Positions 2,352 through 10,849 of a DNA stretch of 11,619 nucleotides are shown here, piece after piece. The position numbers and the translations under genes were made by a program. This DNA is from an uncultured Vogesella sp. Its GTDB lineage: Bacteria; Pseudomonadota; Gammaproteobacteria; Burkholderiales; Chromobacteriaceae. The notes beneath the pieces were generated by a model, which was not told the DNA's origin, made no database searches, and saw only the letters and a program-made list of their open reading frames with translations. The number at the start of each line of letters is the position of its first letter. Position 1 is the first letter of the stretch. The DNA lies in assembly GCA_946479405.1 (NCBI GenBank), contig CAMLGD010000093.1, positions 1-11,619 of the forward strand, written 5' to 3'.

Positions 2352-2369
2352 GCGGCCAACGTTGGCCGC
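2352..2369. repeat. 18-bp perfect palindrome, copy 1 (intergenic)
   Basis: GCGGCCAACGTTGGCCGC is its own reverse complement: two head-to-head copies of the 9-mer GCGGCCAAC. It sits in the 284-bp convergent gap between the cupin and Lrp-type genes. An 8-base partial copy, CGGCCAAC, lies just upstream at 2341-2348. An identical palindrome occurs at 4871-4888. No T-run follows on either strand, so a classic intrinsic terminator role is not supported. Confidence 0.95.
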
Positions 2370-2384
2370 ATGCGGCGTGGCGAC

Positions 2385-2413
2385 GCGGTAGCAGCCGGTC
2401 AGCTGGCTACCGC
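2385..2413. other. hairpin in convergent gap
   Basis: GCGGTAGC (2385-2392) pairs with GCTACCGC (2406-2413). AGC/GCT extends the stem past a one-base bulge at 2405, leaving a six-base loop. It may slow or end transcription of the two converging genes, but there is no T-run, so it is not called a terminator. The rest of the gap 2190-2473 shows nothing further that can be named apart from the palindrome at 2352. Confidence 0.5.
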
Positions 2414-2473
2414 TTGCCAATTTGCCGGCCGTGCGTAGCGGATGTCACAACAGCCGCCAGAACAGCTGGATTC

Positions 2474-2917
2474 CTACCGCGGAGGCAACACCGGCCGCAG
2501 GCTGATAGGTGTGGACAGGATGATGCTGGTACGCGTTTCGCCCAGATCGTTCAGCCGCGACACCAGCAGCTCCAGGTGCGATACGTCGCGTGCCAGCAGA
2601 CGGAATACATAGGAGTCGTTGCCGGTGACATGGTGGCACTCCTGCACTTCCGGCATGGCGGCCAGCCTGTCGAGCAAGGTTCTTTTGGCAGGCTGCGGCA
2701 CGGTGATGCCCACCAGCGCCGATAGCGCATAGCCGGTTTTCAGCGGTGCCACCACCGCGTGGTAGCCGCGAATCACCCCTGCTTCTTCCAGCCGCTTCAC
2801 CCGCTCCGACACCGCCGGCACCGACATGCCCACCCCCTGCGCCAGTTCGGTCAGCGATTGGCGGGCATTGGCCTGCAGTGCAGCCAGAATGGCCCAGGAT
2901 TTACTATCTATTTCCAT
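2474..2917 (-). CDS. Lrp/AsnC family transcriptional regulator
   Basis: This 147-residue DNA-binding protein has the standard two-domain layout. An N-terminal winged helix-turn-helix covers about residues 3-55 (LTELAQGVGMSVPAVSERVKRLEEAGVIRG). A C-terminal RAM/ligand-sensing domain covers about 62-140, with the typical VTGNDSYVFRL segment at 97-107. Family members form dimers or octamers and respond to amino acids. It is divergent from a LysE-type exporter gene and shares a 129-bp control region with it, the same arrangement as other amino-acid exporters and their regulators. It probably controls that exporter and itself in response to the exported amino acid (inference). The ATG at 2917 starts a textbook Lrp N-terminus (MEIDSKSWAIL), although the ribosome site is weak. 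Length is normal for the family. Confidence 0.93.
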   Translation of the reverse strand: MEIDSKSWAILAALQANARQSLTELAQGVGMSVPAVSERVKRLEEAGVIRGYHAVVAPLKTGYALSALVGITVPQPAKRTLLDRLAAMPEVQECHHVTGNDSYVFRLLARDVSHLELLVSRLNDLGETRTSIILSTPISLRPVLPPR

Positions 2918-2937
2918 TTGTAAGGCTCATCTTGGTT

Positions 2938-2954
2938 TTGCCTTAAATTGGCAA
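2938..2954. promoter_or_regulatory. candidate Lrp-type operator between divergent genes
   Basis: TTGCC (2938-2942) and GGCAA (2950-2954) form an inverted repeat around the A+T-only core TTAAATT. Lrp/AsnC sites usually have short dyad arms around an A+T-rich centre, which this matches. It lies 20 bp upstream of the regulator start and about 90 bp upstream of the exporter start, inside the shared intergenic region. No convincing -35/-10 pair could be fixed for either gene. Confidence 0.45.
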
Positions 2955-3046
2955 GTCAATGTGCACAACCACCCACAGCATGGCATGGTTCGCCGCAAGC
3001 GTCACCGGCACACTAAGGACATGAATTCTGCTACTGGGAGCAAGCA

Positions 3047-3673
3047 ATGACTGTGTTTATAGAAGCCGTCGCCATCGGGCTGGCGATTGCCGCACCGGTG
3101 GGGCCGATCGGCTTGTTGTGCATTGAGCGCACCCTGCACCACGGCCCGGCGCGCGGGCTGGCGACCGGGCTGGGCGCAGCTACTGCCGATGCGGTGTACG
3201 CCAGCCTGGGCGCTGCAGGTATGGGGGTAGTGATTGGCTGGCTCACCACACTGGCTGCGCCACTGGCCCTGATCGGCAGCGCGCTGCTGCTGTATCTGGG
3301 TATTGGCACTCTGCGCCGGCCGCAAGCTGTACGCGCGGCGCAGGCAAAAGAAGGAGGCAGCCTGCTGGGCGCCTACAGCAGTGCCTTGGCGCTGACACTG
3401 AGCAACCCGATGACCATTCTGTCTTTCATCGCGGTATTTGCCGGGCTGGCAGGCGGCCGTGCCCCCGGCAGCGCCGAGGCGCTGCTGATGGTGCTGGGAG
3501 TGTTCTCTGGTTCGGCCCTGTGGTGGCTGCTGTTGGCCTATGGGGGTGGCCGCCTGCTGTCAAAACTGGGCCATCGGGGCCGCCGCTGGGTGGACCGCCT
3601 GTGCGGGCTGCTGCTGATCGGCTTTGCCGTGCTGATTGCCTGGCGAGTGTTGCCGACAATCGTGGCATTCTGA
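3047..3673 (+). CDS. LysE/RhtB family amino-acid exporter
   Basis: This inner-membrane protein of 208 residues has the family's usual size and about six hydrophobic helices. Diagnostic segments are APVGPIGLLCIERTL near the N-terminus (16-30, the family's PGP-like motif), GLGAATADAVYA (41-52) and LSNPMTILSF (118-127). LysE/RhtB proteins export amino acids such as lysine, arginine, threonine or homoserine by proton antiport; the substrate here cannot be read from sequence. The ATG at 3047 is supported by GGGAG at 3036-3040, six bases upstream. Its divergent neighbour is an Lrp/AsnC regulator, which probably induces it when the amino acid is in excess (inference). No T-tailed hairpin follows the gene. 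Confidence 0.92.
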   Translation: MTVFIEAVAIGLAIAAPVGPIGLLCIERTLHHGPARGLATGLGAATADAVYASLGAAGMGVVIGWLTTLAAPLALIGSALLLYLGIGTLRRPQAVRAAQAKEGGSLLGAYSSALALTLSNPMTILSFIAVFAGLAGGRAPGSAEALLMVLGVFSGSALWWLLLAYGGGRLLSKLGHRGRRWVDRLCGLLLIGFAVLIAWRVLPTIVAF

Positions 3674-3687
3674 TGCTTACTACGGCT

Positions 3688-3702
3688 AACATGTGGCATG
3701 TT
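3688..3702. other. short dyad AACATG-TGG-CATGTT
   Basis: Six-base arms with a three-base loop lie 15 bp after the exporter stop and about 66 bp before the next gene. It has the size and symmetry of a repressor half-site pair, or of a weak 3' hairpin. Nothing in the window decides between these. Confidence 0.35.
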
Positions 3703-3768
3703 CTTAAAGATATCGGCATTGCTGTCGATAAGCTGTCTGCCAGATAGCATCTATTATGTGAGACCAAT

Positions 3769-4098
3769 ATGGAAATCCGCAGCAATATCAGCGCGATACC
3801 CTATTCCGCCCCGGTAAGTGCGCCCCAGACAGCGGCTGCCGGCGCAGAGGTAGCCACAGCGCCAGCGGAAACACCCTCCACCATCGTCAGCCTGCAATCG
3901 CCGACCCCAGCAGCGACGGGAACTGCGGGCGGCACCGAGCCGTCACCGGTCAAATCTTTTACCTATGGTGCGCTAGGTTTGCCGGAACCGCTGCCAGACG
4001 ACACGCCGTCGGCCAAACCGGAAAACACGTATTTCACCGCCGGCAAGTGGGTTGCGGCAGCCGCGACAGTCGGTTCCATCGTCTCGCTGCTGGTCTGA
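3769..4098 (+). CDS. small Ala/Pro/Thr-rich protein with C-terminal membrane segment
   Basis: A 109-residue protein of unknown function. Residues 1-62 are low in complexity and rich in Ala, Pro, Thr and Ser, probably disordered. A short conserved-looking block SFTYGALGLPEPL (63-75) follows. The end, YFTAGKWVAAAATVGSIVSLLV (88-109), is a single hydrophobic helix running to the C-terminus, as in a tail-anchored inner-membrane protein. There is no N-terminal signal peptide. TATTAT at 3752-3757 could be a -10 box but lies very close to the ATG, and no good Shine-Dalgarno sequence is seen; the ATG at 3769 is the only start available in the frame. The reading frame has normal codon use for this DNA, and I believe similar proteins with the same ending exist in related bacteria, but no function can be assigned. 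Confidence 0.7.
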   Translation: MEIRSNISAIPYSAPVSAPQTAAAGAEVATAPAETPSTIVSLQSPTPAATGTAGGTEPSPVKSFTYGALGLPEPLPDDTPSAKPENTYFTAGKWVAAAATVGSIVSLLV

Positions 4099-4144
4099 TT
4101 TTTATGGACCTTCGCCCACGCGACATGCCCTACATCAATAAAAT

Positions 4145-4173
4145 TTGACAAATCAAGCATTTAGCGCCATACT
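4145..4173 (+). promoter_or_regulatory. sigma70-type promoter of the infA-like unit
   Basis: A perfect -35 box TTGACA (4145-4150) is followed, after exactly 17 bp, by CATACT (4168-4173), which matches four of the six bases of the -10 consensus. Transcription would begin near 4180, giving a leader of about 155 bases before the IF-1-type start codon. The DNA just upstream is A+T-rich (AATAAAAT). This is the best-looking housekeeping-type promoter in the window. Confidence 0.7.
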
Positions 4174-4191
4174 GCTTTTTGCCTCTTCTCT

Positions 4192-4212
4192 GGCGCCACC
4201 TCTACTGGCGCC
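4192..4212 (+). other. 5' leader stem-loop upstream of infA paralogue
   Basis: GGCGCCA (4192-4198) pairs with TGGCGCC (4206-4212) around the loop CCTCTAC, giving a seven-base G+C-rich stem about 12 bases from the predicted RNA 5' end. Such a stem may stabilise the mRNA or take part in leader regulation. No known riboswitch class is recognised. Confidence 0.5.
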
Positions 4213-4334
4213 TGCCTTGCCTTAACTGCTGTCAAATCGCACAGCAATTTCCGCTCAGGTTTACGAAGCAACCTGCCATGTCAGAGCGATTAACGCTGCA
4301 CGTGGCTGCCTACCATTTCAAGATTGGAGCTGCC

Positions 4335-4595
4335 ATGTCCAAAGAAGACATGATCGAACTGCAAGGTGTTGTCATCGAGATGCTGCCGGAATCGCGTTTT
4401 CGCGTTCGGCTCGATAACAACGTGGAGATTCTCGCCTATGGCTCGGGCAAGATGAAACTGCACCGTATCCGTGTGCTGGTTGGCGACCGAGTCACGGTGG
4501 AAATGTCGCCCTATGATCTGACCAAGGGCCGCATCAACTTCCGCCACCCTACCGCAAAAATAGAACATGCTGCGCCAATGAGGCGCCGCCATTAA
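4335..4595 (+). CDS. infA: translation initiation factor IF-1 paralogue with basic tail
   Basis: This 86-residue protein is an S1/OB-fold IF-1, which binds the 30S ribosomal A site during initiation. Residues 1-71 align by eye with E. coli IF-1: [18 protein letters not shown], then [38 protein letters not shown]. coli IF-1 has 72 residues; here about 15 more follow, ending in MRRRH. That extension is typical of the second infA copy in many betaproteobacteria, which lies outside the ribosomal-protein cluster, as here. The ATG at 4335 is chosen for TGGAG at 4325-4329 and for the family N-terminus. An in-frame ATG at 4278 would add 19 residues not seen in the family. It shares the 4145 promoter and probably its mRNA with the small gene 40 bp downstream. 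The special role of the paralogue is unknown. Confidence 0.9.
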
Positions 4596-4635
4596 TCGGC
4601 TACCCGCCAGCGGGTTGCCGCAAAGGAAATACCCA

Positions 4636-4815
4636 ATGAAAATCAAAGAACTGAAACAGGGTGACCGCATCACCCAGCAAATCGACAATTCGACTATCGC
4701 GTTTGAAGTAATGTCCATCCAGCAAATCGGCCGCCGCTTCATGGTGACCTTCCGCTCGGCGTTCGGCATCGAAAGCGCCAGCTACCAGGGCGAAGCCTGC
4801 GTCACCGCAGCATAA
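4636..4815 (+). CDS. conserved-looking 59-residue protein of unknown function
   Basis: A short soluble protein beginning MKIKELKQGDRITQQIDNS and ending in QGEACVTAA. The alternating pattern of hydrophobic and polar residues (RITQQI, IAFEVMSIQQI, RRFMVTFRS) suggests a small beta-barrel, but no family is recognised. The ATG at 4636 is well supported by AAAGGA at 4622-4627, eight bases upstream. It lies 40 bp after the infA-like stop with no terminator between them and is closed by a strong terminator 22 bp after its own stop, so the two genes form one transcription unit. This context hints at a translation- or RNA-related role, which is inference only. The strong ribosome site and terminator make it a real gene despite its size. 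Confidence 0.75.
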   Translation: MKIKELKQGDRITQQIDNSTIAFEVMSIQQIGRRFMVTFRSAFGIESASYQGEACVTAA

Positions 4816-4830
4816 GCACCGGCAGTCAAA

Positions 4831-4860
4831 AAACAGAACCCGCCTTTCGGCGGGTTTTTG
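4831..4860. terminator. bidirectional intrinsic terminator
   Basis: AACCCGCC (4837-4844) pairs with GGCGGGTT (4849-4856) around the tetraloop TTTC. On the + strand it runs into a T-rich stretch; on the - strand, after CTG, into six T residues. It ends the infA-like unit from the left and copA from the right. Confidence 0.9.
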
Positions 4861-4870
4861 CTTTTCCGGC

Positions 4871-4888
4871 GCGGCCAACGTTGGCCGC
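4871..4888. repeat. 18-bp perfect palindrome, copy 2 (intergenic)
   Basis: GCGGCCAACGTTGGCCGC, identical to 2352-2369. It ends one base before the copA stop codon and lies 14 bp from the bidirectional terminator, again in a convergent gap. Confidence 0.95.
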
Positions 4889-4889
4889 A

Positions 4890-7244
4890 TCAGCGCCAGC
4901 GTCGCAACAACAGCGAGTTGCTGACCACCGATACCGAGCTGGCCGCCATCGCCGCCCCGGCAATCACGGGGTTGAGCAGCCCCACAGCCGCCAGCGGAAT
5001 CCCCAGCACGTTGTAGATAAAGGCGAAGAACAGGTTCTGCCGGATCTTGCGCATGGTGGCGCGCGACAGGCGCACGGCATCGGCCAGATGCAGCAGATCG
5101 CCGTGCATCAGCGTCACGTCCGCCGCCTCGATGGCAACATCCGCCCCGGCGCCCATGGCAAAGCTGACATCGGCAGCGGCCAGCGCCGGCGCATCGTTGA
5201 TGCCATCGCCCACCATCGCCACCCGCAGGCCCTGCGCCTGCCAGTGGCGGATTTGCGCCGCCTTGTCCTGCGGACTCTGGCTGGCATACACCTCACTGAT
5301 GCCAGCCTGGCGCGCGATGGTGCTGGCGGTTTCCGGCTTGTCGCCGGTAAGCATCGCCACTTTCACCCCCAGGGCAGCCAGCGTCTGCACTGCCTGCGGC
5401 GACGTTGGCCGCAGCTGGTCAGCCAGCGCCAACAGTGCCTGCGGCACGCCATCGCGCGACAGCGCCAGCACCGTCTTGCCCTGCGCATACAGCGGCTGCG
5501 CCAGCGCCGGTACCGTACCCAATACCCAGTCCGGTGTTCCCAGCTGCAAGCGGCCAACGTTTGGCAACACAGCGCTGACGCCCTTGCCGATGGTGGCCTC
5601 GAACGCCTCCACCGCCGCCAGCGGCAACTGCTGTCTGGCGGCAGCGGCAAGGATGGCCAGCGCCAGCGGGTGCTCGGCACCCTGCTCCAGCGCCGCCGCC
5701 CACCCCAGCCACTGCTCCCCGTCACCGGCAGTCAATGGCACGATGTCGGTGAGCTGCGGCTTGCCGACGGTAAGGGTACCGGTCTTGTCCACCACCAGCA
5801 GATCCAGCTCCGCCGCATGCTGCAGCGCGGTGGCGTTGCGGAACAGCACGCCGCGGCGCGCACCGTTACCCATGCCCACCATGACCGCAGTGGGCGTGGC
5901 CAGCCCCAGCGCGCAAGGGCAGGCGATCACCAGCACCGCCACCGCGTGGATGAAGGCTTGCGGCCAGTCGCCACTCAGCCAGACGGTCAGCAGCAACGTC
6001 AGCAAGGCAATAGCCAGCACCGCCGGCACGAACACCGCGGCAATCTTGTCTGCCAGTGCCTGGATCGGCGCCTTGCTGCCCTGCGCCTCGGCCACCGCGC
6101 GCACGATGGCCGCCAACTGCGTGTGCGCCCCCACGCCGCGGGCGCGCACTTTCAGCATACCGCCGCTGTTCTGGGTGCCGGCATACACCCGGTCGCCCAC
6201 GCCGCGCTCCACCGGCAGGCTCTCGCCGGTAAGCAGGCTCTCGTCCAGCACCGCCTGCCCGGCCTCCACCTCGCCATCCACCGCCAGCCGTTCGCCGTGG
6301 CGCACGATCACCAGATCGTCCGCTTGCAGCTGGCCGATCGGCAGCTCCAATAACTGGCCGTCGCGCTCTACCCGCGCGGTCTTGGGCGACAGCGCCAGCA
6401 GGCTTTCGATGGCGCCGGCGGTGCGGCGCTTGGCACGCGCTTCCAACAGCTTGCCCAGCAGCACCAGGGTGATGATCACCGCACTGGCTTCAAAGTAGAC
6501 ATACAGCTCGTGCATGCCGGCCACGGTGACCCATGCCGACCACAGCCACGCCATGCTGGTGCCCAGCGCCACCAGCACGTCCATATTGGCGCCACCACCG
6601 CGCAGCGCCAGCCAGGCGCCGCGATAGAAGCGCCAGCCGACCAGAAACTGCACCGGCGTCGCCAATGCCAGCTGCCACTCGCGCGGCAGCCAACCGTGGT
6701 GACCGCCGGCCGCCATCGTCCACATCTCACCGGCGAACGGCAGGGTCAGCAGCAGCGACAGCGCAAACCACAGCAGCTCGTGCTGGTAGTGCTGCCGCGC
6801 GGCCTGTTCGCGCGCAGCGCTGTCATCGCTTTGCACGCTGGCGTCGTAACCGGCGCGACGTACGGCGGCGATGACATCGTCGGCCTGCAGACTGCCGGCG
6901 GGAAAGCGTACCGTAGCGGTTTCGGTAGCGAAGTTGACGTTGGCCGCAGCGCCCGGCAGCCGGTTCAGCACTTTCTCGATGCGCTGTGCACAAGCCACGC
7001 AGGTCATGCCGCTGATGGCCAGTTGTACGCTGGCCTCCGGCACGGCGAAACCGGCCTTGCCAATGGCGGTACGCAAGGCGGCGACATCCTGTTGCGCGGG
7101 GTCGAATTCGATACGGGCGGACTCACTGGCAAAGCTGACGCTGGCACTGACGCCCGGCAGGCGGCCCAGCACTTTTTCGATACGCTGCGCGCAGGCGACG
7201 CAGGTCATGCCCTGTACCGGCAGGGTGACGATTTGCTGACTCAT
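4890..7244 (-). CDS. copA: Cu(I)-exporting P1B-type ATPase CopA
   Basis: An inner-membrane pump of 784 residues that hydrolyses ATP to export cytoplasmic Cu(I). Two heavy-metal-binding domains come first, each with GMTCVAC (CxxC cysteines 15/18 and 82/85). Then follow the membrane helices, the actuator TGES (339-342), the CPC metal site in the membrane (442-444), the phosphorylated Asp of DKTGT (486), HP (525-526) and GDGIND (679-684). YN (744-745) and the final MAASS (766-770) are the extra ligands typical of Cu(I) pumps (subgroup P1B-1), which separates it from Zn/Cd pumps. The open frame reaches an ATG at 7274, but that codon falls inside the predicted -10 box. The ATG at 7244 is therefore used; it has GGAA upstream and gives the normal N-terminus MSQQIVTLPVQGMTC. 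It is likely copper-induced. No chaperone or regulator gene is adjacent. Confidence 0.95.
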   Translation of the reverse strand: MSQQIVTLPVQGMTCVACAQRIEKVLGRLPGVSASVSFASESARIEFDPAQQDVAALRTAIGKAGFAVPEASVQLAISGMTCVACAQRIEKVLNRLPGAAANVNFATETATVRFPAGSLQADDVIAAVRRAGYDASVQSDDSAAREQAARQHYQHELLWFALSLLLTLPFAGEMWTMAAGGHHGWLPREWQLALATPVQFLVGWRFYRGAWLALRGGGANMDVLVALGTSMAWLWSAWVTVAGMHELYVYFEASAVIITLVLLGKLLEARAKRRTAGAIESLLALSPKTARVERDGQLLELPIGQLQADDLVIVRHGERLAVDGEVEAGQAVLDESLLTGESLPVERGVGDRVYAGTQNSGGMLKVRARGVGAHTQLAAIVRAVAEAQGSKAPIQALADKIAAVFVPAVLAIALLTLLLTVWLSGDWPQAFIHAVAVLVIACPCALGLATPTAVMVGMGNGARRGVLFRNATALQHAAELDLLVVDKTGTLTVGKPQLTDIVPLTAGDGEQWLGWAAALEQGAEHPLALAILAAAARQQLPLAAVEAFEATIGKGVSAVLPNVGRLQLGTPDWVLGTVPALAQPLYAQGKTVLALSRDGVPQALLALADQLRPTSPQAVQTLAALGVKVAMLTGDKPETASTIARQAGISEVYASQSPQDKAAQIRHWQAQGLRVAMVGDGINDAPALAAADVSFAMGAGADVAIEAADVTLMHGDLLHLADAVRLSRATMRKIRQNLFFAFIYNVLGIPLAAVGLLNPVIAGAAMAASSVSVVSNSLLLRRWR
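5402..5412 (-). repeat. motif copy GCGGCCAACGT inside copA
   Basis: An 11-base half of the palindrome lies on the coding strand, read as codons for Arg-Pro-Thr. The surrounding 15 bases (5401-5415) are identical to 6936-6950 in the same gene, although the codon frame differs. Confidence 0.85.
5550..5560 (+). repeat. motif copy GCGGCCAACGT inside copA, near-palindrome
   Basis: The half-site is followed by TTGGC, so the site is one inserted T away from a longer palindrome. It is read on the coding strand as Asn-Val-Gly-Arg, a frame different from the other two copies in copA. Confidence 0.85.
6937..6947 (-). repeat. motif copy GCGGCCAACGT inside copA
   Basis: The 11-base half-site is read as Ala-Ala-Asn-Val in the linker strand of the second metal-binding domain. 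Confidence 0.85.
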
Positions 7245-7272
7245 GGCGATTTCCGACGAGGAATATAAACCC

Positions 7273-7301
7273 ATGATATACCCCTACAGGGTATATAGCA
7301 A
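7273..7301 (-). promoter_or_regulatory. copA promoter with CsoR-like operator in the spacer
   Basis: On the - strand, TTGCTA (7301-7296) and TATCAT (7278-7273) form a -35/-10 pair with a 17-bp spacer. Nearly the whole spacer is an inverted repeat: arms ATATACCC (7276-7283) and GGGTATAT (7289-7296) around five bases. Arms of the TATACCC/GGGTATA type are known for CsoR/RcnR-family repressors, which release DNA on binding Cu(I). A protein bound here would block RNA polymerase directly. Transcription would start near 7266, leaving a leader of about 22 bases. No regulator gene lies in the window. Confidence 0.7.
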
Positions 7302-7349
7302 AGTCGTGTTGAACAGCCATCCACCAGCAATCTGCTGCAGCTAGCCCCT

Positions 7350-7381
7350 GCTGTGCGCCCCTCCCGGGCGCAAGACACAGC
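7350..7381. other. bulged hairpin between corA and copA
   Basis: GCTGTG (7350-7355) pairs with CACAGC (7376-7381), and CGCCC (7356-7360) with GGGCG (7366-7370); CAAGA is bulged out on one side. It lies about 30 bp after the corA stop on the - strand. There is no T-run, so it may be a weak or Rho-assisted end for corA; this is uncertain. Confidence 0.4.
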
Positions 7382-7400
7382 GGGCCGACGACACGCCACT

Positions 7401-7409
7401 GCGGCCAAC
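7401..7409 (+). repeat. motif copy GCGGCCAAC after corA stop
   Basis: A single 9-base copy lies two bases from the corA stop codon, in the corA-copA gap. Like the two full palindromes, it sits at the 3' end of a gene. Confidence 0.75.
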
Positions 7410-7410
7410 C

Positions 7411-8478
7411 TTACAGCCAGCGGCGGCGCCAGAAAATGAAGCCCAACACCAGCGCAATCAACGCCATGCCGGCCATCACGCCGAAATAGCCATAGCGCCA
7501 GTGCAGCTCCGGCATGTTGTCAAAGTTCATGCCGTAGATGCCGGCAATCAGCGTCAGCGGCATGAAAATGATGGTGATCACCGTCAGCACCCGCATCTGC
7601 ACGTTGAGGCGGTTGGACTGCGCCGACATGTACAGATCCAGCATGCCGGAGATCACCTCGCGCGCGGTTTCCAGCGATTCAATCAGATGCAGGGTGTGGT
7701 CGAAGGCATCGCGCAGGTACAGCAGCGTGCCGTGCTGAAAGAAAGTGTGGTCGCCGCGGGTCAGCACATTGAGCACCTCGCGCAGCGGCACCAGCGCGCG
7801 GCGCAGGCGCATTGCCTCCTGCTTCTGGCGCTGGATGCGCGCCAGAATGAAGCGGTCGTGGCCGGACAATACCTGCTTGTCCAGCTGCTCCACATTGGCG
7901 TTGAACTGATCGATGACGCCAAAGTAGTCATCGATGATGGCATCCAGCAGGCCATAGGCCAGGTAGTCGGCTCCCTGCTGACGAAGTTGGCCGCGCCCCT
8001 GGCTCAGCCGTTCGCGCAGCGCGGCAAACACGCCCAGCGGCTGGGTCTGGAAACTGAGCACAAAGCCCTGCCCGATCACCAGGTATACCTGGTCGTGCTG
8101 CAAGCGCTGGTTGTCCGGCTGGTAGCGGTACACCCGGGTGGCGATGAACAGGTAGTCGCCGTAGTCGTCCACCTTGGGCCGCTGCCGGCTGTTGAGAATG
8201 TCCTCCAGCACCAGCGGGTGCAAACCGAAGCGCTGGCCGATCGCCTGCATCAGCGCCGGATCAGTCAGACCATACACGTTCAGCCATAGCACCGGCAGCT
8301 GCGGCCGGTACGCCAGCCCCTCTTCCAGCGTGGCAAACACCGTCTCGCGGCATTCGGCGGCGTTGTATTCGATCAGCGAGATGCGGCTCGCCAGCGCGGG
8401 CGCCTCCCCCGCCGGCAGCAGCGTGCCCGGAGGCTCGCCCAGAGTGGGAAAACGCTGTTTCAGATGTGGATGACGCAT
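7411..8478 (-). CDS. corA: CorA-family magnesium/cobalt transporter
   Basis: A 355-residue inner-membrane channel that takes up Mg2+ (also Co2+ and Ni2+) as a pentamer. A large cytoplasmic N-terminal domain of mixed alpha/beta structure and long helices fills residues 1 to about 290. Two membrane helices follow (about 296-315 and 331-349), joined by the diagnostic GMN motif in YGMNFDNMPEL (316-318). The end, FWRRRWL, is basic, as expected for the cytoplasmic tail. The frame is open back to 8529, but that stretch lies inside the ppx terminator. The ATG at 8478 is preceded by GGAG, four bases upstream, and is therefore the start. Length is slightly above E. coli CorA (316). Its transcription must begin in the short region between the ppx terminator and the gene, or by read-through; no clear promoter was found. 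Confidence 0.93.
   Translation of the reverse strand: MRHPHLKQRFPTLGEPPGTLLPAGEAPALASRISLIEYNAAECRETVFATLEEGLAYRPQLPVLWLNVYGLTDPALMQAIGQRFGLHPLVLEDILNSRQRPKVDDYGDYLFIATRVYRYQPDNQRLQHDQVYLVIGQGFVLSFQTQPLGVFAALRERLSQGRGQLRQQGADYLAYGLLDAIIDDYFGVIDQFNANVEQLDKQVLSGHDRFILARIQRQKQEAMRLRRALVPLREVLNVLTRGDHTFFQHGTLLYLRDAFDHTLHLIESLETAREVISGMLDLYMSAQSNRLNVQMRVLTVITIIFMPLTLIAGIYGMNFDNMPELHWRYGYFGVMAGMALIALVLGFIFWRRRWL
7986..7994 (-). repeat. motif copy GCGGCCAAC inside corA
   Basis: The 9-mer lies on the coding strand, read in a Gly-Gln-Leu frame. Confidence 0.7.
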
Positions 8479-8490
8479 ATGGCTCCAGAC

Positions 8491-8525
8491 AGAAAAACGG
8501 CCGTGGCAGCTGCTGCCCACGGCCG
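8491..8525 (-). terminator. intrinsic terminator of ppx
   Basis: On the - strand, CGGCCGTGG (8525-8517) pairs with CCACGGCCG (8506-8498), the stem continuing past a one-base bulge, and is followed at once by TTTTTCT. It starts about 35 bp after the ppx stop and ends 12 bp before the corA start codon, separating the two genes. Confidence 0.88.
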
Positions 8526-8559
8526 GCACCCAGCGGCCTGCGCGGCCGCCTACCCTGGC

Positions 8560-10053
8560 TTATTCGCCACGCATTTCCAGCGCTACGCCGATGTCTCGCC
8601 ACTGGCCGATTTCCTGCTTGAAGGCGGCGGTGGTCAGCGGGTTGGCCGCCAGCCAGGCCTTGCCCACGGTCAGCGCGTAGCCGTTGAGGGTGCGGCGCAG
8701 GCCGTGGATGGCATCCACGTCCACCGGGTTGCGGCTGCGGCAGAACAGCGCCGCCAGCCGTAGCGCCAGCACCGCCGGCCACAGCGACTCGTCGCTGACT
8801 TCCTTCAGCATCTTGCCCATGTCGCCGCGATGGCCTAGCACGATGGTGGCCAGCACGCTCTGCTCGCGGCGCGAGAAACCGGGCATGTCGGCATTGTTGA
8901 GAATGTAGGCGGAATGCTTGTGATAGGCAGTGTGCGCAATCGACAGACCGATCTCGTGCACCCGCGCCGCCCAGATCACCCGCTTGAGCATGTCCTCGTC
9001 CAGCGGCTCACCGGCGACCATGCGGTACAGACGCTCGGCCAGCTGTGTCACCCGCTGCGCCTGTGCCGTATCCACGTGGTAGCGGCGCTTGAACTGGGCA
9101 ATGGTGGAGTCCCGCATGTCCTTCTCCCGCTGGCGACCAAGCAGGTCGTACAGCACGCCGTCGCGCAGCGCGCCATCGGTAACGATCATGCGCTCGACCG
9201 CCAGCGACTCGAACACCGCGATCATGATTGCCAGCCCACCCGGCAATACCGGTGCACGGTCGGCTTTCAGGCCATTGATGGCGATATTGCGGATGTCGCC
9301 ACAGCGCTGCAGCGCCTCGCGCAGGCGCTTCATGCCGGCCAGGGTAATCTCGCCGCCAAACCAGTCGTTGATCTCCATGATGTCGCGCAGCGAGCGCGCG
9401 GTGCCGGAGGTTCCCACCGCCAGCTGCCACTCGCTGAGCGGATACTGGTGCGCAATGCGCTGGATCTCGTTGCGTGCGGCCAACTCGGCATCGCGGAAGG
9501 CATTCTTGCTGATCTTGCCATCGACGAAGAAGCGCTTGCTGAAGGTAACGCAGCCCAGCGGCAGGCTCTCGGTCACATGCGCCTTGTACTGGCTACCGAT
9601 GATGAACTCGGTGGAACCGCCGCCGATGTCCACCACCAGCCGCCGCTCCTTGGTGGCTGGCAGCGTGTGTGCAGCGCCCAGATAGATCAGGCGGGCCTCT
9701 TCGCGGCCGGCAATGATTTCGATGGGGAAGCCCAGCAGCCGCTCGGCTTCCACGATGAAGGCCGGCGCGTTCTTCGCCACGCGCAGCGTGTTGGTACCCA
9801 CCACGCGCACCTGCTTCGGGTCCAGCCCGCGCAGCCGCTCGCCAAAACGTGCCATGCATCCCAGGGCACGGGCCAGCGTTTCTTCATCCAGCGTCTTGTC
9901 TTCTTGCAAACCGCCGCCCAGGCGCACGGTTTCTTTGAGGGAATCGAGGGTATACAGCTGGTCGTCTACCACACGGGAAATCTGCAGCCGGAAGCTGTTG
10001 GACCCCATGTCCACGGTAGCCAGCACGTCAAACGGGGGCGTGACGGTACTCAA
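8560..10053 (-). CDS. ppx: exopolyphosphatase (Ppx/GppA family)
   Basis: A 497-residue cytoplasmic enzyme that removes terminal phosphates from inorganic polyphosphate. Visible features are the ASKHA phosphate-binding segment VDMGSNSFRLQ (14-24), the catalytic-region GREEARLIYLGAA (117-128) with its acidic residues, and the second nucleotide/phosphate motif VVDIGGGSTEF (140-150). A C-terminal HD-like domain shows VHEIGL and HKHSAYIL, as in E. coli PPX. The start is taken as TTG at 10053: AAGGGG lies eight bases upstream and gives MSTVTPPFDVLATVDMGSNS. The longer frame, from 10104, would begin inside the phoU terminator. Length suits PPX. It follows phoU by 82 bp, linking polyphosphate use to phosphate signalling. 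A GppA activity (pppGpp hydrolysis) cannot be excluded. Confidence 0.92.
   Translation of the reverse strand: MSTVTPPFDVLATVDMGSNSFRLQISRVVDDQLYTLDSLKETVRLGGGLQEDKTLDEETLARALGCMARFGERLRGLDPKQVRVVGTNTLRVAKNAPAFIVEAERLLGFPIEIIAGREEARLIYLGAAHTLPATKERRLVVDIGGGSTEFIIGSQYKAHVTESLPLGCVTFSKRFFVDGKISKNAFRDAELAARNEIQRIAHQYPLSEWQLAVGTSGTARSLRDIMEINDWFGGEITLAGMKRLREALQRCGDIRNIAINGLKADRAPVLPGGLAIMIAVFESLAVERMIVTDGALRDGVLYDLLGRQREKDMRDSTIAQFKRRYHVDTAQAQRVTQLAERLYRMVAGEPLDEDMLKRVIWAARVHEIGLSIAHTAYHKHSAYILNNADMPGFSRREQSVLATIVLGHRGDMGKMLKEVSDESLWPAVLALRLAALFCRSRNPVDVDAIHGLRRTLNGYALTVGKAWLAANPLTTAAFKQEIGQWRDIGVALEMRGE
8641..8649 (-). repeat. motif copy GCGGCCAAC inside ppx
   Basis: The 9-mer lies on the coding strand, read as Ala-Ala-Asn near the C-terminus. 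Confidence 0.7.
9476..9484 (+). repeat. motif copy GCGGCCAAC inside ppx, opposite orientation
   Basis: The coding strand carries GTTGGCCGC, spanning codons for Glu-Leu-Ala-Ala; frame and orientation both differ from the copy at 8641. Confidence 0.7.
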
Positions 10054-10085
10054 AAAGCTCACCCCTTGTCGGAGATTGGTTGAAT

Positions 10086-10117
10086 AAAAAAACGGCGGTA
10101 ACAATGTTACCGCCGTT
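10086..10117 (-). terminator. intrinsic terminator of phoU
   Basis: AACGGCGGTAAC and GTTACCGCCGTT (10091-10102 and 10106-10117) form a perfect 12-bp stem with a three-base loop, followed on the - strand by an unbroken run of T (10092-10086). It lies 18 bp after the phoU stop and only about 32 bp before the ppx TTG start, so little room is left for a separate ppx promoter. Confidence 0.93.
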
Positions 10118-10135
10118 CGCTAGGCTGGTGCACGC

Positions 10136-10849
10136 TTATTGGGCGGCATCGCCCAGCGATTCGCGCTTCTTTTCTTCCAGCGAGGTGTGGCGGATGTCCT
10201 TGCCCTTCACCAGATACACCACGTATTCCGAGATGTTCTTGGCGTGATCGCCGATGCGCTCGATGGCCTTGCACAGGAACAGCGTGTCGATGGAGGTGCT
10301 GATGGTGCGCGGATCTTCCATCATGAAAGTAATCTGCGCACGCAGCTCGGACGAGTAATCCTGGTCCAGCAGCATGTCCTCCTCGGCCAGCTCCACTGCG
10401 GCGGTCGGGTCCAGACGGGCAAAGGCGTCCAGCGCACGATGCAGCATGGCGATGGCGGTTTCCGCCATCTTGGATGCCTCGCGGAAGCGCGGCGCCGGCA
10501 TGCGGGCGCCCTGGCACAGATCGCGGCCAACCCGCGCGATCTTCTGCGCTTCGTCGCCGATGCGCTCCAGATCGGTAATGGTCTTGATCACCGTCACCAC
10601 CATGCGCAGGTCGCTGGCCGCCGGCTGACGGCGCACGATGATGTGCTGGCAGTCTTCATCAATCTGCACTTCCAGCGCATTGACCTTGGCATCGTCGGCG
10701 ATCACGCGCTCCAGGCGTGCCACATCACCCTCTTGCAAGGCGTCCATGGCGGCGCGGATCTGCTGCTCTACCAGCCCGCCCATCTGCAACACACGGGTGC
10801 GGATGGTTTCGAGCTCCAGGTCATACTGTTTGGAAAGATGTTCGGGCAT
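10136..10849 (-). CDS. phoU: phosphate signalling/transport regulator PhoU
   Basis: A 237-residue cytoplasmic protein made of two three-helix PhoU repeats. Each repeat carries the family's metal-binding sequence: TDLERIGDEAQKIARV (about 92-107) and KAIERIGDHAKNISEYVVYLVKGKDIRH (about 194-221). PhoU connects the PstSCAB phosphate transporter with the PhoR/PhoB two-component system and holds the phosphate regulon off when phosphate is plentiful. Normally phoU ends the pst operon; here no pst gene precedes it in the window, and its upstream neighbour is rpiA, with its own terminator. It therefore has its own promoter in 10850-11049. GAGG six bases before the ATG supports the start. Length is normal. 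Downstream ppx shares its phosphate theme. Confidence 0.96.
   Translation of the reverse strand: MPEHLSKQYDLELETIRTRVLQMGGLVEQQIRAAMDALQEGDVARLERVIADDAKVNALEVQIDEDCQHIIVRRQPAASDLRMVVTVIKTITDLERIGDEAQKIARVGRDLCQGARMPAPRFREASKMAETAIAMLHRALDAFARLDPTAAVELAEEDMLLDQDYSSELRAQITFMMEDPRTISTSIDTLFLCKAIERIGDHAKNISEYVVYLVKGKDIRHTSLEEKKRESLGDAAQ
10523..10531 (+). repeat. motif copy GCGGCCAAC inside phoU
   Basis: The coding strand carries GTTGGCCGC, read as Val-Gly-Arg. Confidence 0.7.

Follow-up and report, generated by a model that had tools for sequence, protein, structure and literature searches.

On sequence evidence, we consider with fair confidence that the 9-mer GCGGCCAAC, which recurs in an 11.6-kb stretch of DNA from an uncultured Vogesella sp. 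(contig CAMLGD010000093.1, 11,619 nucleotides; the whole stretch is called the window), is the core of a Vogesella DNA uptake sequence (DUS), belonging to a divergent DUS-like family that would be read by a ComP-like pilin. It is the most frequent 9-mer in the window, with 12 exact copies, six on each strand. This is the number, orientation and placement that a first-pass annotation had recorded by eye, and its estimate that well under one copy should arise by chance agrees with dinucleotide shuffles of the window (mean 0.42, maximum 2, 0 of 200 reaching 12). Seven of the 12 copies lie within the 11-mer GCGGCCAACGT, and 12 of the 19 TTGGCC hexamers in the window belong to the motif, both also as annotated. 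By our gene coordinates, five copies are intergenic and seven are genic, the latter read in several codon frames (VGR and AAN twice each; LRPT, RGQL and ELAA once each), as had been claimed. Four of the five intergenic copies make up two perfect 18-bp palindromes, GCGGCCAACGTTGGCCGC, each flanked by convergent gene ends (Table 1).

The suggestion that this is a genome-wide signal, to be checked by counts in relatives, is supported. Among 21 relatives counted, all eight genomes of the clade of Vogesella, a freshwater bacterium, carry 2,499-3,490 copies of GCGGCCAAC, nearly equally split between strands, vs 100-269 in the other 13; these eight include two metagenome-assembled genomes named 'Neisseriaceae bacterium' and one named 'Beta proteobacterium L13'. 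Copies thus number in the thousands per genome on both strands, within the hundreds to thousands typical of DUS, at a density of about 1 per kb. Sister genera of similar guanine-plus-cytosine (GC) content lack the word as an enriched signal. Across 61 genomes of the family, 13 fall into the Vogesella-type word class and 22 carry some word of this kind. Five of the genomes (G057-G061) were placed in the Vogesella clade on two grounds, presence of the word and membership of their ComP-like proteins in one supported group (100/99). The 10-mer GTTGGCCGMA occurs 1,888-2,925 times in all 13 Vogesella-clade genomes and 629-2,226 times in the six sister genomes searched. Beyond the family, a search of 399 sampled genomes of the order, made with KCGGCCAAC only, returned more than 1,000 copies in eight, all of them family genomes already known.

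We characterized the shape, frame, strand, hairpin and GC behavior of the word in an 800-kb sample of the complete genome of a relative (G061), which holds 565 exact copies. One-base neighbors reach at most 36 copies, with position 8 as the exception (G 186, C 63, T 62); GCGGCCAGC is likely a background word. A T precedes 91% of the copies, and C, T, T and G follow, each in about half, giving the extended form TGCGGCCAACCTTG. Because 396 intragenic copies show the same flanks, we treat the word as a single element of about 14 bp. The GT end of the 11-mer stems partly from head-to-head pairs, TGCGGCCAACCTTG being the usual extension in the relative. Genes in this sample were called with a simple codon-score script and cover 79% of it. 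Intragenic copies number 402, vs a mean of 49 and a largest value of 64 in 30 synonymous shuffles, and each of the six codon frames is in excess (5.7-13.5 fold). The annotation's expectation of an excess beyond codon-preserving models and independent of frame was therefore borne out on this sample. Copies are denser in intergenic (0.95/kb) than in genic DNA (0.64/kb). Within called genes they are more numerous in the 5′ fifth, an excess we leave uninterpreted because start sites were guessed.

Word sites are also conserved. In seven pairs of closely related orthologous loci (0.91-0.94 DNA identity), 238 of 262 word sites (91%) are exact in the partner, vs 6,726 of 11,719 composition-matched anagram sites (57%); in eight deeper pairs, 59 of 147 word sites are kept vs 1,257 of 5,737 controls. 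These pairs are not independent, because they have loci in common and each site is scored from either side; sites with gaps or poor alignment were left out. Together, the close and deeper figures indicate that word sites persist yet also turn over.

With low-GC windows as a proxy for mobile DNA, the word is scarce there, as is typical of DUS. The 18 4-kb windows with GC below 0.56 hold 6 copies (0.08/kb; 4.6x the local expectation), and the 94 windows with GC 0.64-0.68 hold 321 (0.85/kb; 16x), so that the word is about ten-fold thinner in low-GC islands. There are seven word-free gaps of at least 7 kb. Nine proteins viewed from five of these stretches revealed BREX-type genes with a serine recombinase in one (L209), an Abi-type gene in a second (L211), both of these being low in GC, metabolic genes in two and nothing recognized in the last. 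A 182-kb contig of another word-bearing genome (G055) has 4 copies of TTCGGCCAA in 60 kb, vs 98 in 160 kb of its chromosome.

Inverted pairs of the word stand at transcription ends, another DUS trait. The 565 copies include 46 close inverted pairs, of which 19 lie within called genes, 2 touch a sample edge and 25 could be classed. The classed pairs comprise 11 in convergent, 13 in co-directional and 1 in divergent regions, and divergent regions make up 22% of called intergenic bases; by the script-made gene calls, 24 of the 25 lie in regions with at least one gene end. Some inverted pairs, such as AAGGTTGGCCGCATGCGGCCAACCTTTTTT (L225), resemble intrinsic terminators.

Related words in sister genera behave like dialects. 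Two sister words, TCGGCCAAC and TCGGCAAAC, occur in 9 of the 48 other family genomes, and whole-genome counts of TCGGCMAAC separate 9 of 61 genomes (1,004-2,465 copies) from the next (423). De novo searches of samples of 40-362 kb returned as top words TGCGGCCAAC in Vogesella; TTCGGCCAAC in JH1-16, Gulbenkiania and Pseudogulbenkiania; and CTCGGCCAAC in G049 (Crenobacter cavernae by protein record) and G050. The word of G055 is TTCGGCCAAC as well, and G031 has TTCGGCAAAC together with TTCGGCCAAC, resembling the two DUS dialects reported for Simonsiella (PMC3630211). Reciprocally, the Vogesella word is scarce in five sister genomes (100-227 copies), and TTCGGCCAA is at background level in all eight Vogesella genomes (23-63 copies). 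Pseudogulbenkiania ferrooxidans 2002 (G010), one of the nine sister-word genomes, has 1,149 copies of GTTGGCCGMA vs 19 of the reversed control. This is the present NCBI name of Lutiella nitroferrum 2002, which Frye et al. 2013 (PMC3630211) listed among five genomes without an obvious DUS. The genome G056 combines a ComP loop of the type found with the word and just 205 copies of the 10-mer, vs 21 of the control; its system may be in decay or diluted. Four tested dialect words are near expectation in 200 kb of the 4.8-Mb Chromobacterium-clade genome G038. The top words of that sample (L246-L255) overlap (GTGTTCCCC, CCCACGCACG and GGGATGAACC; about 70 copies each) and have the appearance of a clustered regularly interspaced short palindromic repeats (CRISPR)-like array. 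Homopolymeric C or G tracts are over-represented in V. oryzae (G001; L068-L086, L001), with CCCCCCCC at 100 copies vs 2.5 expected; they may be phase-variable or reflect the assembly.

The candidate receptor is a minor pilin of one ComP-like group, present in all 22 word-bearing genomes. Two such pilins were tested singly: that of V. oryzae has ComP (2M3K) as its best PDB match (E 1.5e-6), and that of Crenobacter cavernae likewise (2NBA, E 2e-13). For the V. oryzae pilin model, Foldseek places ComP in the first three ranks. Sequence and model thus both put the protein, a predicted type IV prepilin, nearest to ComP. ComP was absent from the PDB matches of a control PF16732 pilin from V. oryzae. 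PF16732 itself was rejected as a receptor marker; because it is too broad (all 61 genomes match, 60 above the cut-off), we searched with a narrower alignment. Within the ComP-like group, a pattern in the beta1-beta2 loop is found in 21 of 22 word genomes vs 1 of 28 others. The best 120 of 6,985 matches in a protein search were mostly pilins of other groups. The word-free genome G051 has a ComP-like frame with one internal TGA (L279).

The word itself may be related to known DUS. On the other strand, the commonest 12-mer is AGGTTGGCCGAA in JH1-16 and G055 and AGGTTGGCCGCA in three Vogesella samples. Aligned with four of the eight published DUS dialects, on both strands and at seven offsets, AGGTTGGCCGAA best matches AG-mucDUS, AGGTCGTCTGAA, ungapped at offset 0 with 9 of 12 positions (a score that 0.9% of shuffles and 0.6% of random words attain). 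This in-register likeness hints at descent and does not prove it. The annotation had held that the Neisseriaceae uptake sequence is a different one; it does differ, in having CTG where CCG stands here, but with 8-9 of 12 positions in register on the opposite strand it is perhaps not unrelated. The word has in common with DUS a density near 1 copy per kb, occurrence on either strand and in every frame, a ComP-related pilin, dialects specific to genera and inverted pairs where genes end. The last two of these are described for DUS (PMC3630211). The Vogesella word differs in its CCG core, its host family (Chromobacteriaceae) and a pilin with two conserved Cys, and its uptake role is putative.

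Several observations weigh against this interpretation. The Vogesella 12-mer AGGTTGGCCGCA matches AG-mucDUS at just 8 of 12 positions, the level reached by three dialects other than that of AGGTTGGCCGAA (chance 4-6%), and with a one-base shift of the 12-mer the match drops to 7 (chance 20-25%). CCG replaces the CTG core (positions +6 to +8) that characterizes DUS and that is reported as required in N. meningitidis (PMC3630211). Just two Cys are conserved among 28 aligned pilin sequences, vs four in Neisseria ComP. The pilin is accordingly predicted to lack a DD region pinned by two disulfides. A ComP-like match of at least 110 bits is found in 56 of 61 genomes, word-free ones included, and so the gene fails to predict the word. 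The association of loop and word is clustered on the tree, where it comes down to 1-3 independent contrasts, and it was formulated once the sequences had been seen; G055, moreover, carries the word together with a divergent loop. ComEC is present in all four genomes searched, yet also in 10 of 14 control genomes, which makes it uninformative as a competence marker. Among the papers listed by literature searches, none was found with uptake or binding data on these bacteria. On balance, the word appears to share most sequence traits of DUS while departing from them in the CTG and the four Cys, and may be described as a CTG-less DUS-like variant outside the published DUS set.

Previously known uptake words show no enrichment here. 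Canonical GTCTGAA stays below 2-fold of its reversed control in all 23 genomes searched. Pasteurellaceae label self-DNA with uptake signal sequences (USS), short words in thousands of copies whose style of distribution is that of the Vogesella word. The USS words AAGTGCGGT and ACAAGCGGT have 2 and 3 copies in the 800 kb of G061 and are not enriched. Pasteurellaceae are reported to have no ComP homologue. Beyond Frye et al. 2013, none of the papers listed by literature searches was seen to report the word or uptake sequences in these genera; Table S1D of that paper (over-represented 10-mers) lay outside the search and may print the word, unrecognized as a DUS. GGCCAAC does appear in one DNA-uptake paper, as part of a cloning primer. 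We also drew on parts of PMC12061091, PMC11316581, PMC3868556, PMC4906244, PMC12826045 and PMC2346458.

Among the functions that the first-pass annotation proposed (uptake, methylation, nucleoid organization or recombination), DNA uptake fits the sequence data best. A signal for recombination or chromosome organization, akin to Chi, KOPS or a nucleoid-protein site and bound inside the cell, would also be short, frequent and genome-wide, with conserved sites and few copies in likely imports. HIP1, Chi and KOPS are all short over-represented genome words; HIP1 is palindromic, and Chi and KOPS are strongly strand-polar. The Vogesella word is neither. With strands assigned by GC skew, 267 copies lie on the leading and 298 on the lagging strand, and on this lack of bias we reject a replication-polar signal. 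Furthermore, uptake sequences are described as having genus-specific dialects and as forming head-to-head pairs at gene ends, which leaves an intracellular signal improbable in our view.

Other origins seem less plausible still. Multiplication of a dispersed terminator or repetitive extragenic palindromic (REP)-like element as hairpins could produce the 46 close inverted pairs in 800 kb and their near absence from divergent regions, yet the pairs account for at most 92 of the 565 copies, and the 402 genic copies occupy every frame; we give this origin very little weight. There is slightly less reason still to see a word held by a modification system. The palindrome GGCC lies within it, but the conserved part is 10-14 bp and non-palindromic, restriction sites are usually avoided rather than enriched, and G031 also uses GTTTGCCGAA, which is without GGCC. 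That codon usage or base composition generates the excess is close to inconceivable. These genomes are GC-rich and the GCG-GCC-AAC frame is the top reading (117 of 402), but the synonymous shuffles, the excess in all six frames and the absence of the word from sister genera of similar GC, together with the genome counts in relatives, refute such an artefact.

The 12 copies in the window are listed in Table 1. Its genes, named from reading of their translations rather than family searches, encode an ABC transporter, a cupin, AsnC/Lrp, a LysE-type protein, IF-1, a copper ATPase, a CorA-like protein, ppx, phoU and an rpiA-like product. Ppx is 95% identical to that of Vogesella oryzae; because the DNA is nonetheless just 80% identical across 10.8 kb, the source is probably another Vogesella species. 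GGCCAAC sites without the full word, at 2214, 2342 and 3532, are likely background or decayed copies.

Table 1. Copies of GCGGCCAAC in the window
Feature	Position	Strand	Context
Perfect 18-bp palindrome GCGGCCAACGTTGGCCGC; two head-to-head copies, hairpin-forming	2352..2369		Between the 3′ ends of a cupin-like gene (+, ends 2189) and an AsnC/Lrp-like gene (-, 3′ end 2474)
Second perfect palindrome; two copies	4871..4888		One base beyond the copper ATPase stop (-, 3′ end 4890); faces the IF-1-like gene end (4595)
Copy in copper ATPase gene	5404..5412	-	Sense, reads L-R-P-T
Copy in copper ATPase gene	5550..5558	+	Antisense, reads V-G-R
Copy in copper ATPase gene	6939..6947	-	Sense, reads A-A-N
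Intergenic copy	7401..7409	+	One base beyond the CorA-like stop (-, 7411-8529); context TGCGGCCAACCTT, a full consensus match
Copy in CorA-like gene	7986..7994	-	Sense, reads R-G-Q-L
Copy in ppx-like gene (exopolyphosphatase)	8641..8649	-	Sense, reads A-A-N
Copy in ppx-like gene	9476..9484	+	Antisense, reads E-L-A-A
Copy in phoU-like gene	10523..10531	+	Antisense, reads V-G-R

Returning to the proposed uptake sequence, the full element would read approximately CAAGGTTGGCCGCA on the other strand and is probably a distant dialect of the Neisseriaceae DUS whose CTG core has turned into CCG. We infer that the ComP-like minor pilin, as part of a type IV pilus, binds free DNA at the word, that kin DNA is thereby preferentially taken up and that this bias maintains the word, with recombination of imported kin DNA both keeping and spreading it. 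Between genera the word would drift into sister dialects, and head-to-head pairs may be reused at gene ends as hairpins. More broadly, the chances seem evenly balanced that ComP-like self-DNA recognition is older than Neisseriaceae and was present in their common ancestor with Chromobacteriaceae. That history would include a shift from CTG to CCG, at least four dialects (GTTGGCCGCA, GTTGGCCGAA, GTTGGCCGAG and GTTTGCCGAA) and loss in several lineages, among them Chromobacterium and Aquitalea-like ones, in which the pilin persists and its DNA-contact loop is altered.

Neisseriaceae and Pasteurellaceae are the two well-known uptake-sequence families and are mostly host-associated, and Chromobacteriaceae are largely free-living. 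If the proposal is true, it would add a largely free-living family to the bacteria with uptake sequences, including a genome said in 2013 to lack an obvious DUS, and would mean that the 'essential' CTG core can change. It would also make naturally occurring word and receptor variants available for studying DNA reading by ComP, a process termed enigmatic in a 2025 paper. In these bacteria, the word provides an easy genomic marker of imported DNA, and it has the look of a so far unrecognized, distant cousin of the Neisseria DUS.

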